Source of the DNA: Planctomycetota bacterium
GTDB lineage: Bacteria; Planctomycetota; Phycisphaerae; WQYP01
Length of the DNA stretch: 32,285 bases
Assembly (NCBI GenBank): GCA_021852275.1
Contig: JAJZNX010000172.1
Coordinates: forward strand, 1-32,285
Direction: 5' to 3'
The notes under the pieces: model-generated
The model's input: only the letters and a program-made list of their open reading frames with translations
Told to the model about the DNA's origin: nothing
Databases searched by the model: none
Made by a program: the position numbers and the translations under genes
Shown here: piece by piece, positions 1,790 through 9,767 of the stretch
Layout of the letters: each line of letters starts with the position of its first letter
Numbering within the stretch: position 1 is the first letter of the stretch

Positions 1790-1818
1790 TTGACAAACAT
1801 TGTGAAAAATATTACAAT
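1790..1818 (+). promoter_or_regulatory. Sigma70-type promoter of the atp operon
   Basis: TTGACA (1790-1795), a 17-base spacer and TACAAT (1813-1818) form an almost perfect housekeeping promoter. Transcription should start near 1825, giving a leader of about 20 bases with GAAGG at 1833-1837 ahead of the first ATG. It is the clearest promoter in the window and the obvious driver of the whole atp operon. Confidence 0.85.
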
Positions 1819-1821
1819 GTT
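1796..1821. promoter_or_regulatory. Palindromic operator in the atp promoter, Rex-box-like
   Basis: AACATTGT (1796-1803) and ACAATGTT (1814-1821) are perfect 8-base inverted arms around a 10-base centre. The inner 18 bases, TTGTGAAAAATATTACAA (1800-1817), match the published Rex consensus TTGTGAAnnnnTTCACAA at 12 of 14 defined positions. The site covers most of the promoter spacer and the -10 box, so a bound protein would block RNA polymerase. Assignment to Rex is inferred from the motif only; no rex gene lies in this window. Confidence 0.5.
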
Positions 1822-1845
1822 AGTCCGCGGTCGAAGGTGACGGCC

Positions 1846-2202
1846 ATGGAAGAAGATGGGCCTAAGAAGGAAATACCCTCCGGCGGCGCGCAATCCGCGA
1901 TGAATCGGCTGGAAAAACATGCCGAAGATCGCATGCATTCAGGCTCATCTAACCGCAGTGGAGCCGGCAGAGGCGGTTTGCAGCGTTTTGCGGGGATGGG
2001 GTTTGAGTTTCTCGCCGTTATTTTAGTATTCGGATTGATTGGCCAGTGGCTGGATAAAAAATTTCAATGGCACGGAGTGGCCACCGTAATAGCCGTAAGT
2101 GTCGCGGCGATTGGTGACCTGTACTTGCAGATAAAAATACTCTTGAAGACGGATCACAAGGAAACAAAAATTTCAAGACCCGATCAGGATGGTGATGAAT
2201 AA
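1846..2202 (+). CDS. atpZ: AtpZ/AtpI family ATP synthase accessory protein
   Basis: This is a small membrane protein. A charged, soluble N-terminal stretch of about 45 residues is followed by two predicted membrane helices, the first beginning near GFEFLAVILVFGLIGQWLD and the second near VATVIAVSVAAIGDLYLQI. The G-QWLDKKF pattern between them is typical of the family once called 'ATPase gene 1' (AtpZ), which accompanies F-type synthases and is proposed to help c-ring assembly or Mg2+ supply. The ATG at 1846 is chosen over the GTG at 1837 because GAAGG (1833-1837) is spaced correctly. Its stop overlaps the start of the next gene, which suggests translational coupling. Confidence 0.75.
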   Translation: MEEDGPKKEIPSGGAQSAMNRLEKHAEDRMHSGSSNRSGAGRGGLQRFAGMGFEFLAVILVFGLIGQWLDKKFQWHGVATVIAVSVAAIGDLYLQIKILLKTDHKETKISRPDQDGDE

Positions 2203-2623
2203 TCCACAAAAAGCAGAGGCGATCAGTTCAATGTGGCTGCGGCTTGGTTTGGCGGCTACGCCGGTGGCGGCCGTTGGAACTGTGATGCTGTTGGCGTCAT
2301 GTGCATTATTGCTGTTGCATCGGCCGCTGCATCTACAAGAGATGCTGGATGCCGCGGTGGTGAGCGTGGTGGTGGGTTTGCTGGCCGTTGCACCGATGGT
2401 GATATTGATCGGGCGCAGCGCCATATTACTGTTGCGTTGTGCGGTGCTGGCGAACATGACGCGGTTGGTGGGTGTAGCCGTTGGGGCGGTGGTGATCATT
2501 GCTTTTTCGCCGGTGCATTTGCAGAAAACAGTGGTGTTGCTGTGGCTTGTGGCTTTTTATTTTGTGTTGCTCATTGCCGAATCGGTGGTGTCCTCGTGGG
2601 TCATCAAACATTCCAAGGTGTAG
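2195..2623 (+). CDS. atpI: AtpI-like membrane protein of the ATP synthase operon
   Basis: A protein of about 142 residues, almost entirely hydrophobic, with four predicted membrane helices (roughly residues 15-40, 50-75, 80-103 and 110-135). Position in the operon between atpZ and atpB, size and topology fit the ATP synthase I (AtpI/UncI) family, whose members aid c-ring assembly. Sequence similarity alone is weak, so the assignment leans on context. AGGA at 2186-2189 suits the ATG at 2195; the ATG at 2189 would also read in frame. The start overlaps the end of atpZ. The 150-base gap to atpB holds only a small CGGCC/GGCCG hairpin (2633-2647). Confidence 0.6.
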   Translation: MNNPQKAEAISSMWLRLGLAATPVAAVGTVMLLASCALLLLHRPLHLQEMLDAAVVSVVVGLLAVAPMVILIGRSAILLLRCAVLANMTRLVGVAVGAVVIIAFSPVHLQKTVVLLWLVAFYFVLLIAESVVSSWVIKHSKV

Positions 2624-2773
2624 ATTGTGATGCGGCCGGGAAGGCCGTCGATAACAGGTTCATTTGACGAGCTGCGGCACATCAGGTAAAAGAATCGCCC
2701 CGGCGCTGCTCTGGCGGGTGGCAACGGGATTGATGAATGGGCGGCAGGTTGGAACCGGATTTTAGAAGTGCTT

Positions 2774-3757
2774 ATGAATGTTGTTGTGCCAGTGACTGCC
2801 AGTAGTTTACCGCTGGCCGGCGTGAACGTACTTAGCGGAACTGTTGCGCACCGTTTGTGGTCCCATCCGATGTTTTCCATCCTGGGAAAACCAGTCTATT
2901 TCAGCAGCGATATTTTGATGTTGTTGTTGTCGGCCGGTCTGATGCTGGTCATTTTCCCGACTATGGCGCATCGCCTGAAAAAGCACCCGGTGCCGACCGG
3001 ATTTCGTAACTTTTTTGAGGCCGTTCTGGTATTTCTGCAGCGTGATACTTTTGAGCCGATGCTGGGGAAATGGGCTTCTGTATTTACACCTTACCTATGG
3101 ACGGCTTTTTTCTTTATCTTGTTTGCCGATCTCTTCGGCATGTTGCCGGTGGATGAACTGGTAACCCTGTTCAACGCGGCTTTTGGTACGCACATTCCGG
3201 CATTCTGGGGCGATGCAACGGGCAATTTGACGGTTACGGCTACCTTGGCAGTATGCACGTTTGTAACGGTGCATGTGTCGGGGTTGTCCGCTTTTATCCG
3301 TCACGCCCGCAACCGACATCAACCTCATGCTCAGGAACACAGCCATGGACATCATGTTCATGCTGCAGCCATGGCGGAAGGCCCCCGTCGCATGTGGCCG
3401 GTAGCGGCAGTGGTGGGAGTTAGCAACTACTTTAAACACCTGGTTCCCCCCGGCGTGCCATGGGTGATTTGGCCGCTGATTTTTGTGCTGGAATTATTGG
3501 GTATGTTCGTAAAGCCGCTGGCCTTGTGCATGCGTCTTTTTGCAGTGATGATGTCCGGGCCGCTGGTGGTGGCGGTGCTGGTAAGCATCACATTTGCGCT
3601 GGGCGGCGCTCTGGCCCGGACAACGGCGGCTATTCCGGTGATTTTTTCAGGGACAGCGTTTGAGGCGCTGCATCTGCTGGAAGCCTTTCTACAGGCCTAT
3701 ATCTTTACACTGCTGAGTGCGGCTTACATCGCGGAAGCGGTTTCCCTGGAACATTAA
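2774..3757 (+). CDS. atpB: ATP synthase Fo subunit a
   Basis: The membrane-embedded a subunit forms the proton half-channels facing the c-ring. The 327-residue protein has an N-terminal region ending in SDILMLLLSAGLMLVIF, further helices, and the conserved C-terminal pair: PLALCMRLF carrying the essential Arg (about residue 254) and LLEAFLQAYIFTLLSAAYIAEA with the conserved Gln (about 307) and a His at about 300. Two things are odd. A loop at about residues 177-196 is very rich in histidine (eight or nine His). Also, the usual RLF-G/A-NM-xx-G-E/H signature reads RLFAVMMSGP, so the Asn and the acidic/His position are lost. The ATG at 2774 follows GAAG; the ORF-track GTG at 2768 is an alternative. 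Confidence 0.93.
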   Translation: MNVVVPVTASSLPLAGVNVLSGTVAHRLWSHPMFSILGKPVYFSSDILMLLLSAGLMLVIFPTMAHRLKKHPVPTGFRNFFEAVLVFLQRDTFEPMLGKWASVFTPYLWTAFFFILFADLFGMLPVDELVTLFNAAFGTHIPAFWGDATGNLTVTATLAVCTFVTVHVSGLSAFIRHARNRHQPHAQEHSHGHHVHAAAMAEGPRRMWPVAAVVGVSNYFKHLVPPGVPWVIWPLIFVLELLGMFVKPLALCMRLFAVMMSGPLVVAVLVSITFALGGALARTTAAIPVIFSGTAFEALHLLEAFLQAYIFTLLSAAYIAEAVSLEH

Positions 3758-3835: not shown

Positions 3836-4171
3836 ATGGATCCAACAACAACGATGCAGGCAACCCAGGCGGCGGCGGCCACCGGCCACGCGGTGGCTCA
3901 TGGCCTGGCTCAGGGAGCCAATTCCATGCATGAGCTGACCGAAGCCATTCAGGTGGCGGGAGCCTTAATTGGCGGTGGAGCTGGTGTAGGTGGCGCGGGT
4001 GCCGGCGTGGGTGCCATCGGCGGCAGCATGTGCGAAGCGACGGCTCGTCAGCCGGAACTGATTAACGTCATCCGCACCCAATTCTTTCTGGCGGCAGCTA
4101 TTATTGAAGGTTTTACCTTTTTGCTGCTGGTGCTGGTGATGATCGTGCTGATCCGCAATGGCGGGCTGTAA
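3836..4171 (+). CDS. atpE: ATP synthase Fo subunit c
   Basis: This is the c-ring proteolipid, 111 residues against a usual 70-90, because of an extra Ala/Gly/His-rich N-terminal stretch of about 35 residues. Helix 1 is packed with glycines (GGGAGVGGAGAGVGAIGG), the cytoplasmic loop is ARQPEL, and helix 2 carries the ion-binding Glu at about residue 91 (AAAIIEGFTF). The residue after this Glu is Gly rather than the Ser/Thr expected in Na+-binding rings, so proton coupling is inferred. The CAGGAG box sits 8 bases before the ATG. The N-terminal extension might be a cleaved targeting segment, but it is not a clear signal peptide. Confidence 0.93.
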   Translation: MDPTTTMQATQAAAATGHAVAHGLAQGANSMHELTEAIQVAGALIGGGAGVGGAGAGVGAIGGSMCEATARQPELINVIRTQFFLAAAIIEGFTFLLLVLVMIVLIRNGGL

Positions 4172-4261
4172 GCTACCAGGGATCAAGCTCGCGGATCGAG
4201 GCGATTGACACCGATCCCACAGTGAACTGCAGTGTAAAGCCATCAAATAAGGACTTTGGCT

Positions 4262-4912
4262 ATGAATATGATATTCAGGCAGATAATATCCATGCCGCTA
4301 TTAAGCCGATTGCTCACCGGCGCGGGGGCGACGGCTATGTTGGCGCTGGTGGCAATGGTAAACCCGGTGCAGGCAGCCGTGGCTCATTCCGGCGGTGGGG
4401 CGGCCAATGCCGGTGCCAGACTGATGTCGATCAATGCGGGTATGGCATTGATTACCCTGGTTATATTTGTGGTTTTATTGGTGGTGTTGAGCCGATTTGC
4501 CTGGCGGCCCCTCATTGCAGGCCTGAACCGTCGGGAAAATGCCATTCGCGAAAGCGTGCAGGCCGCCGCCGCCGCCCAGGCCCAGGTGGAACAAACGCGC
4601 AAACAACTGGAAGAAAAAATTGCCGAGGTACAGCGGCAAGCGTCCCAGCAGCTTCAACAGGCAAAAGTGGATGCATCCAAGGCGGCGGATGCCATTCACC
4701 AGCGGGCAGAGGCGGACGCTCGGGCCTTGAAGGAGCAAGCCTTACGTGATATTGAATCGGCCAAGCAGCAAGCCTTGGGTGAAATAGCCCGTCAAGCAGC
4801 CGATTTAAGTGTCCAGATCGCGTCACGCATCATAGAGCGGGAAATTAATGCCGCAGATCAGCGGAAGTTTCTGGACGAATCTTTGGCGCAGTTAACGGTC
4901 AGTGTGAATTAA
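4262..4912 (+). CDS. atpF: ATP synthase Fo subunit b
   Basis: Subunit b forms the peripheral stalk that holds F1 against the a subunit. The protein begins with what looks like a cleavable signal peptide (hydrophobic stretch ending in NPVQA), then a short linker, one membrane helix (ALITLVIFVVLLVVLSRF) and a long Gln/Ala/Glu-rich coiled coil to the C-terminus. An N-terminal signal sequence before the membrane anchor is unusual compared with E. coli b, though reported for b subunits of several phyla. AAGGA (4249-4253) fits the ATG at 4262, 8 bases downstream; the ORF-track TTG at 4256 is less likely. Confidence 0.9.
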   Translation: MNMIFRQIISMPLLSRLLTGAGATAMLALVAMVNPVQAAVAHSGGGAANAGARLMSINAGMALITLVIFVVLLVVLSRFAWRPLIAGLNRRENAIRESVQAAAAAQAQVEQTRKQLEEKIAEVQRQASQQLQQAKVDASKAADAIHQRAEADARALKEQALRDIESAKQQALGEIARQAADLSVQIASRIIEREINAADQRKFLDESLAQLTVSVN

Positions 4913-4943: not shown

Positions 4944-5537
4944 ATGGAACCCAGAGAATCCGAACTGTTGATGGTGGGGCGCGTCTATGCCACTGCACTT
5001 TACGATGCGGCACTGGCTGCGGGAAAACTTGCCGACATTGTCGCGGATATGACCGCTCTGGGCCAACTGTTGGCGGCTACGCCACGGTTGAAGGCTTTTC
5101 TCAAGGTGGCAACCATTGGATCCCGGGAAAAGCGCAAGCTCCTCGACGATGCATTAGCCGGCAAGTTGGAGGGGATGACGCTGGCGGTGTTTCACGCCAT
5201 GGCCCGGCGCGACCGGTTGGATCTGCTGCCGGAGTTTATTGCAGCGTTTGCAGCGATTCACGATGAAAGGTCGAATCGCGTCGTACTGGAGGTTGTTTCG
5301 GCTGTTCCGATTGACTCAACCCGACAGGAACAGATTCGAACGGCCGTGGCCAAAGCGGTGGGACGTGAAGTAATACTGAAAGTATCGGTGAATCCGAAAT
5401 TGCTGAGCGGAGCTCAATTTCGTCTGGGGGACTTGTTTGTAGACAATAGTATCAACTACAGACTTGCGGCCATGAAATCATGGCTGCACGCTCAGTTGTT
5501 CTCCCAATTGCGTCCGCAGAAAGCCATTGAAACCTGA
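4944..5537 (+). CDS. atpH: ATP synthase F1 subunit delta
   Basis: Delta caps the alpha3beta3 hexamer and joins it to the b stalk. The 197-residue length is close to the family norm (about 180). The N-terminal helical domain opens with VGRVYATALYDAA, the classic Y-A-AL start of OSCP/delta. The C-terminal part has VVLEVVSAVPID and the family-typical end region with LSGAQFRLGDLFVDNSI, equivalent to GG-xx-i-G-d-xx-D-xS. A GGTGGAG box precedes the ATG by about 5 bases. Confidence 0.92.
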   Translation: MEPRESELLMVGRVYATALYDAALAAGKLADIVADMTALGQLLAATPRLKAFLKVATIGSREKRKLLDDALAGKLEGMTLAVFHAMARRDRLDLLPEFIAAFAAIHDERSNRVVLEVVSAVPIDSTRQEQIRTAVAKAVGREVILKVSVNPKLLSGAQFRLGDLFVDNSINYRLAAMKSWLHAQLFSQLRPQKAIET

Positions 5538-5625: not shown

Positions 5626-7233
5626 ATGAAATTCAGAGTTGATGAAATTTCGTCTGTCCTGCAAAAAGAAATCGCCACGTTTGAGGACCGGCTCGATGTC
5701 AGTCAGGTCGGCAAGGTGATTGAAGTTGGCGACGGTATAGCGCGTATTTACGGTCTGTCCAACGTGATGGCCGGTGAGATGTTGCAGTTTCGCAACAACC
5801 TGTATGGCCAGGTATTTAACCTGGAAGAAGAGACCGTGGGAGCGGTTATCTTCGGCGATTCCTCGGATATCAAGGAAGGAGATGTGGTCCGCTCTACCGG
5901 TGAACTGCTGTCCGTTCCCGTAGGCCCTGAATTGCTGGGACGTGTAGTCAATTCCATCGGCCAGCCCATGGACGGGGGCAGCCCCATTGTAACTGCTCAG
6001 CGCCGTAAGGTGGACATCATCGCTCCTGGTATCGCCGATCGGCAGCCGGTGAAAGAACCGCTGCAAACCGGGGTCAAGGCCATAGACTCAATGATTCCGA
6101 TCGGGCGTGGCCAGCGCGAGCTTATCATCGGAGACCGCAAAACCGGAAAGACGGCGGTGGCGATTGACACCATTATCAATCAGAAAAAGTTTTTTGGCAC
6201 CCCGGACGAAGTGATATGCGTTTATGTGGCCATCGGACAGAAAGAATCCACCGTTGCGGGAGTCGTAGACGTATTACGACGGGTCGGTGCGATGGCCTAC
6301 ACGATTGTAGTGATTGCCGGAGCTTCCGATGCGGCTCCGCTGCAATACATCGCTCCGTATGCTGGCTGCGCTATGGCGGAACATTTCATGTGGCAGGGCA
6401 AAGCCACGCTTTGCGTTTACGATGATCTTTCCAAACAGGCCCAGGCATATCGGCAGTTGTCACTGTTGCTGCGCCGGCCGCCGGGTCGCGAGGCTTATCC
6501 TGGTGACGTATTTTATCTCCACAGCCGCCTGTTGGAGCGTGCCTGTAAACTCTCCAAACAGAATGGCGGAGGCTCGCTGACCGCTTTACCGGTGATTGAA
6601 ACGCAGGAAGGCGAAGTATCCGCCTATATTCCAACCAACGTAATCAGTATTACCGACGGACAGATATATCTGGAACCGGATCTTTTCTACGCGGGTGTAC
6701 GGCCGGCCGTCAATGTGGGTATTTCCGTAAGCCGCGTTGGCGGAGCGGCTCAGATCAAGGCGATGAAACATAAGAAGGTGGCGGCTTCGTTGCGGCTGGA
6801 TTTGGCGGCGTACCGGGCACTGGAGGCGTTCACCCAGATCGGCACGGATTTGGATCAGGCCACACAGAAACAGTTGGATCGCGGTATGCGCATGGTGGAA
6901 ATTCTCAAACAACCGCAGTATCAACCGATGGATGTAGTCGATCAAATTGCCGTGATTTACGCTGCGACCCAGGGATATCTGGATGCCGTTGCGGTGCGTG
7001 AGGTAGGCCGCTGGGAACATGATTTTCTTGAGTATTGGACATCTTCGGGGGCGGATGTTCGCAAGGAACTGATGCAGACGCGAGAATTGACGCCGGCCAT
7101 TGAAGGCAAACTCGTGGAACTGATTAAAAGCTTTTCCAATATCACACCGCTGGTCAAAAAGAAGGTCGAAGGCCTGGATACCAAGCCTGTGGACCAGATG
7201 GTAAAAGAGCAGGTACGAGCGGTGCGGGAGTAA
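5626..7233 (+). CDS. atpA: ATP synthase F1 subunit alpha
   Basis: This is the non-catalytic nucleotide-binding subunit of F1. Its 535 residues include the N-terminal beta-barrel, a P-loop GDRKTGKT at about 169-176, the [27 protein letters not shown] block and [11 protein letters not shown], which carries the arginine finger that reaches the catalytic site on beta. The C-terminal helical domain is complete. AAGGTG lies a few bases before the ATG. The region between about residues 305 and 312 (KQNGGGS) is shorter than in E. coli. Nothing suggests loss of function. Confidence 0.98.
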
Positions 7234-7292: not shown

Positions 7293-8201
7293 ATGTCCAA
7301 TGCCAGAGAAATTGTTAAACGCCGAAAAGCGGTGCGCAACATCCATAAAATCACCAAGGTGATGCAGATGGTGGCTACCGCCCGGTTTCAACGGGCACTC
7401 AAACGCGCCAAGGGTACCCGCCCGTATCTGGAAAAACTCAACGATCTGGTGCAGAACACATTTTTAGGTGCCCATGGTTCGGTGGAAATTTCCCGCCATC
7501 CATTGCTGGTCAGCCGCATGCCTTGCAGTCGCGTGGGTATATTGGTGGTCACCAGCAATCGGGGACTGGCAGGCGGCTATAACAGCCAAATTTTGCGGTT
7601 GGCGATGCAGACGGTTAGGCAGGTGGAACAGGCTGGCGGAGCCGTGGATATTCATGTGGCAGGGCGTAAGGGTGCGGCTTATTTTCGATTCGCGCGGCGC
7701 GAAGCCCAGGCTGCCTATACCAACATCAGCGATAATGCCCGTTTCGAGGAAATTATTCCAGTTGCCCAGCGACTGATGGACGATTACGCGACTCAAAAAA
7801 TTGACGCGGTCAAAATTATTTATATGCGTTTTTTAAGTCTAGGTCAGCAGCGGCCGGTTTGCGTTGATGTGCTGCCGCTGACTGGCGTGGATAATGTGAC
7901 CAATCCGGATTCGTCGGCTGCGCCTTCAGCTTCCCGGATGCGTGCCTGCAGCGAGTATTTTCCGGAGGCGGGCGAGCTGCTGGTGGAGTTGGTGCCCACC
8001 ATGGTTCGCGCCGCAGTTTTTCAAGCCTTTGTGGACGCCTCCGTTTCGGAGCAGATCTCACGCATGATGGCGATGTCCGCGGCAACCGAAAATGCGGAAT
8101 CCATGAACAGACAGTTGACCAGCGAATATAACCGTGCCCGGCAATCGCAGATTACCAGCGAGCTATCGGAACTTATGGGCGGTGTGGAGGCGCTCAAATA
8201 A
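7293..8201 (+). CDS. atpG: ATP synthase F1 subunit gamma
   Basis: Gamma is the rotary central shaft. The N-terminal helix (REIVKRRKAVRNIHKITKVMQMVATARFQRA) and the C-terminal helix (MMAMSAATENAESMNRQLTSEYNRARQSQITSEL) are the two halves of the coiled-coil axle and are both well conserved. The Rossmann-like middle carries SNRGLAGGYN. Length (302) is normal. In most bacteria epsilon binds the foot of this subunit, yet no epsilon gene is found in this operon. Confidence 0.96.
   Translation: MSNAREIVKRRKAVRNIHKITKVMQMVATARFQRALKRAKGTRPYLEKLNDLVQNTFLGAHGSVEISRHPLLVSRMPCSRVGILVVTSNRGLAGGYNSQILRLAMQTVRQVEQAGGAVDIHVAGRKGAAYFRFARREAQAAYTNISDNARFEEIIPVAQRLMDDYATQKIDAVKIIYMRFLSLGQQRPVCVDVLPLTGVDNVTNPDSSAAPSASRMRACSEYFPEAGELLVELVPTMVRAAVFQAFVDASVSEQISRMMAMSAATENAESMNRQLTSEYNRARQSQITSELSELMGGVEALK

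Positions 8202-8315: not shown

Positions 8316-9767
<1,452 letters not shown>

Follow-up and report, generated by a model that had tools for sequence, protein, structure and literature searches.

A predicted Rex operator in the ATP synthase promoter of a planctomycete and matching sites at other respiratory operons

The window, a stretch of 32,285 nucleotides, is contig C18 of a planctomycete genome (G000; 3.58 Mb, 82% complete). It contains a promoter followed on its 3' side by genes of an F-type ATP synthase, which were assigned by Pfam to an AtpI-like protein and the subunits a, c, delta, alpha, gamma, and beta. The gene upstream of the promoter encodes an S1-domain protein. The atp genes are presumably transcribed as one operon. 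The features of the locus are as follows.

1790..1795, plus strand: atp promoter −35 hexamer, TTGACA (TTGAC is unchanged in all 20 distinct homologous promoters compared)
1796..1821, unstranded: perfect 8-base inverted repeat AACATTGT-N10-ACAATGTT (outer bases kept in close relatives only)
1800..1817, unstranded: proposed Rex operator TTGTGAAAAATATTACAA (18-mer, inside the atp promoter)
1813..1818, plus strand: −10 hexamer TACAAT (bases common to the right half of the operator)
1837..2202, plus strand: first gene of the atp cluster, AtpI-like (ATPase_gene1, PF09527; start GTG 1837 or ATG 1846)
2189..2623, plus strand: small ORF of 144 aa between the AtpI-like gene and atpB (no Pfam match)
2768..3757, plus strand: atpB, F0 subunit a (PF00119)
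3836..4171, plus strand: atpE, F0 subunit c (PF00137)
4222..4749, plus strand: probable atpF, judged by position and gene order (no Pfam match)
4944..5537, plus strand: atpH, delta subunit (PF00213)
5626..7233, plus strand: atpA, alpha subunit (PF00006 and others)
7293..8201, plus strand: atpG, gamma subunit (PF00231)
8331..9767, plus strand: atpD, beta subunit (PF00006 and others)

The promoter at 1790-1818, in which TTGACA and TACAAT are separated by 17 bases, matched the sigma-70-like elements at 11 of 12 positions, and no better promoter-like match was seen in the 12 kb scanned from the start of the window. The arms AACATTGT and ACAATGTT of the inverted repeat (1796-1821) enclose the spacer gaaaaatatt. 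The original prediction had described this promoter with its perfect 8-base inverted repeat, as well as an agreement with the Rex consensus at 12 of 14 positions; both were confirmed, the former at 1790-1821 and the latter for TTGTGAAAAATATTACAA at 1800-1817 compared with TTGTGAAnnnnTTCACAA. However, perfect 8-base inverted repeats with a spacer of 2-12 bases number 11 in the window, compared with approximately 7 expected in random sequence. The perfect palindrome alone is therefore ordinary, and it was rejected as evidence by itself. The window contains a single Rex match of at least 12/14, and such a match turned up in 17% of random windows. Furthermore, only the inner TTGT/ACAA is kept in relatives, whereas the outer AACA/TGTT, which makes the repeat perfect over 8 bases, drifts. 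The perfect 8-base palindrome did not stand as a meaningful feature in itself. What exceeds chance is the position of the operator in the promoter and its conservation, not its shape, and the case is carried by comparative evidence.

Close relatives by AtpB were planctomycete metagenome-assembled genomes, several of them Phycisphaerae or Phycisphaerales, and we suspect from the isolate names that many came from acid mine drainage. Of the 23 family genomes in which AtpB was matched, 18, representing six genera, carried the atp site, and each of these 18 genomes also has Rex. Conservation of the palindrome in close relatives, on which the original prediction had made itself dependent, was thereby observed, with only the inner part retained. 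TTGAC and TTGTGAAAAAT were the same in all 20 distinct atp promoters and TAC[AG]A was nearly invariant; the flanks of these promoters were near random, the 40 bases on the upstream side carrying approximately 0.1-0.3 bit each. The 18-mer TTGTGAAAAATANTACAA, which allows one free base, was found in exact form once per genome in 17 genomes, all of the same family; of the 298 genomes sampled from the class, none from another family contained it. Position 13 of the operator was T in 20/20 atp promoters, while nuo sites have C. This T, which departs from the consensus, can be attributed to the −10 hexamer TACAA[AT], which opens with the same base. Since the operator half-site and the −10 hexamer share bases, one sequence would serve both.

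The five family genomes in which the atp site was missing were G010, G012, G013, G014, and G019. Rex was present in four of them (G010, G012, G014, and G019) though the standard atp site was absent, and G013 showed neither the atp site nor a Rex match. In G014, the nuoD site was degenerate and Rex was retained. The lineage of G014 and G019 (L032, L031, and L085) may have rewired its Rex regulon.

Phylum-wide conservation of the atp site was looked for and not found. At a threshold of at least 11/12, a site was detected in the atp upstream regions of 2 of 26 other-family planctomycetes with rex (G093 and G121) and in 0 of 54 without rex; this trend fits but is not significant (Fisher P = 0.10). 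Loosening of the threshold to 9/12 gave P = 0.02, but the matches resembled background. Rex-like palindromes also lie approximately 550-850 bases 5' of the atpB match at L131, L133, and L137, in more distant planctomycetes including Paludisphaera soli.

A Rex homologue, whose absence from the genome had been named as grounds for dismissing the Rex reading, is present. The single orthologue (238 aa, L001:1420-2136), encoded directly 3' of a gene that looks FtsK-like by eye, exceeded the cut-offs of PF06971 and PF02629 and scored 249 bits against the NCBIfam equivalog NF003993 'Rex' (cut-off, 217). Its best solved homologues were the Rex structures 3ikv/3ikt/2dt5 (E about 1e-43 to 1e-42), and 2vt2 was also homologous. 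A Rex-type winged-helix N-terminus and an NAD(H)-binding Rossmann domain are thus found in one protein. The recognition-helix region QVRKDLAYFGQFG and the NAD motif GAGNLG (GxGxxG-type) were retained with small variations in family orthologues. A search of 25 family genomes detected Rex in 22; the exceptions were G006, G013, and G022 (53-81% complete). No site of at least 11/12 was found in the rex loci of the family that would point to autoregulation of rex.

The rest of the genome was covered by pattern matches and the stretches around them. The exact sequence TTGTGANNNNNNTCACAA (TTGTGA-N6-TCACAA) occurs three times in the 3.58 Mb, compared with approximately 0.15 expected by simple arithmetic, as follows.

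C25: exact site before nuoA, which is followed by nuoB
C161: exact site before nuoD, which is followed by nuoE and nuoF
C207: exact site before a gene for a ResB-like protein (below the Pfam cut-off), which is followed by a Cytochrom_C_asm protein gene (cytochrome c maturation operon)

The occurrence of the same motif upstream of nuo genes, which had been suggested as a check, was therefore borne out before both nuoA and nuoD. In addition, TTGTGCAAAGTTTCACAA, with one mismatch, precedes on C58 a frame with five CxxCH motifs (ActA) and a gene for an ActB-like protein of 1043 aa, which carries TIGR04519 and 4Fe-4S domains and belongs to an alternative complex III. This sequence was found again in three other genomes, and G008 has a variant site before ActA/ActB, there a Cytochrome_C7 protein and a 1046-aa ORF, as well as a further site before a cytochrome c gene. 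The exact nuoD site was kept in 7 genomes, and in G009 nuoA too is preceded by an exact site. Across 8 family genomes, near-consensus sites numbered 72, compared with 28 for a reversed control pattern. Relative to the predicted promoters, the site covers the spacer and the −10 sequence at atp, lies just 3' of the predicted −10 sequence at nuoA and act, and lies over a weak predicted −10 sequence at nuoD. All of these placements are predicted to fall within the expected RNA polymerase footprint, so that binding could block the polymerase.

One-mismatch sites on C1, C159, and C85 were set aside as likely chance matches because they are positioned inside ORFs. A conserved Rex-like site was also seen before a gene for a coiled-coil, signal-peptide-like protein of 545-580 aa in G002, G004, G005, G009, and G015 (L249, L237, L242, L241, and L245); this protein is without a confident family match, and in G002 and G005 its gene is followed by YceI-domain genes. 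Another site, TTGTGAAAAATAGCACAA, is located at 4860 of L232 (G000:C177), 151 bases 5' of a DUF2617 gene, and was kept in three genomes of the genus.

The motif also fits another regulator family, a rival that the original prediction left out. Crp/Fnr-type operators (TGTGA-N6-TCACA) have half-sites and spacing near-identical to those of the atp site, and the consensus sites of Crp and Rex overlap. TGTGAAAAATATTACA matches the Crp/Fnr pattern at 9/10, which is at least as good as the Rex match, and respiratory genes are typical targets of Crp/Fnr proteins; the site might accordingly belong to an FNR-, HcpR-, or cAMP-CRP-like regulator instead of Rex. However, the cNMP-binding domain PF00027 was found neither in G000 nor in 6 of 8 site-bearing relatives (G004, G005, G007, G008, G020, and G024), no Crp-type helix-turn-helix domain (PF13545) exceeded the cut-off in G000, and the first T of TTGTGA, which Crp does not require, was invariant in 20/20 atp promoters. 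The lack of the Crp/Fnr sensor domain weakens this explanation, which we regard as very unlikely overall and as largely refuted for the six relatives named. The other two of the 8, G009 and G015, possess cNMP-binding proteins. Because G000 is 82% complete, the gene for a further regulator of similar specificity may lie outside the assembled part.

The conserved block could also be no more than a core promoter of unusual strength or kind, of which the palindrome is a by-product and on which no regulator acts. Part of the conservation is indeed explained by TTGAC and TACAA being promoter elements. Sigma-70 by itself, however, needs no fixed spacer sequence, and it is in the spacer that the invariant TTGTGAAAAAT sits. 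Moreover, the motif recurs at the nuoA, nuoD, ActAB, and ResB/CcsA promoters at other positions relative to the −10 sequence, and we consider a core promoter without a regulator extremely improbable. A weaker form of the Rex reading, compatible with it, is that Rex binds but that its effect on atp is minor or overridden by another regulator, NADH thus not setting ATP synthase levels. In Streptomyces avermitilis, Rex targets atpI directly, but atpI transcription fell under oxygen limitation in the wild type and the rex mutant alike (PMC5355995). On the other hand, the planctomycete atp site is under strong sequence constraint across six genera, and we view such a minor role as possible but rather doubtful.

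As judged from sequence, 1800-1817 is very probably a Rex operator, through which Rex would block the atp promoter and other respiratory promoters at low NADH. Bound Rex would cover the spacer between the −35 and −10 sequences together with the −10 hexamer. At a low ratio of NADH to NAD+, Rex dimers would bind and RNA polymerase would be excluded; when NADH accumulates, Rex would bind NADH and leave the DNA, and the putative atp operon would be transcribed. Released together with it would be nuoA-nuoB, nuoD-nuoE-nuoF, the ActAB part of alternative complex III, and the ResB/CcsA-type cytochrome c maturation operon. One motif in the promoter of an uncultured planctomycete thus leads to a coherent prediction, which we hold to be fairly likely: in this Phycisphaerae family, a single NADH-sensing repressor, Rex, would jointly repress much of the aerobic energy chain, namely ATP synthase, both complex I operons, cytochrome c maturation, and alternative complex III, and the whole chain would be built in proportion to the NADH supply.

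The control of atp genes by Rex in Streptomyces, cited in the original prediction, is a real precedent. EMSA, ChIP, and footprinting demonstrated that Rex of S. avermitilis binds the promoters of atpIBEFHAGDC and nuoA1-N1, and this binding is weakened by NADH; the Rex operators at atpI and nuoA1 lie between the −35 and −10 sequences (PMC5355995). A Rex switch at atp is therefore already known, and the predicted planctomycete instance would be of the same kind in another phylum. The two cases are alike in repressor family, in the TTGTGAANNNNTTCACAA operator, in the atp and nuo targets, and in operator placement, the planctomycete case being a prediction. They differ in that Rex of Streptomyces also regulates cydABCD and rex-hemACDB (PMC5355995), whereas the predicted planctomycete set comprises atp and nuo together with cytochrome c maturation and alternative complex III, and a site for autoregulation of rex was not seen. 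The consensus TTGTGAANNNNTTCACAA across bacteria is credited to Ravcheev et al. 2012 in the wording quoted in PMC5317091. The predicted planctomycete regulon has this consensus and repression at low NADH/NAD+ in common with Rex regulons across bacteria. To our knowledge, the lineages in the survey of Ravcheev et al. do not include Planctomycetota.

A literature search for Rex regulation in planctomycetes yielded no report of it, its one match being concerned with short linear motifs. If the prediction is true, no Rex regulon in Planctomycetota, and none elsewhere that takes in alternative complex III, has been described before, as far as the literature searched shows. The target and the operator placement common to two phyla suggest that the coupling of ATP synthase supply to NADH is ancient or evolved repeatedly.
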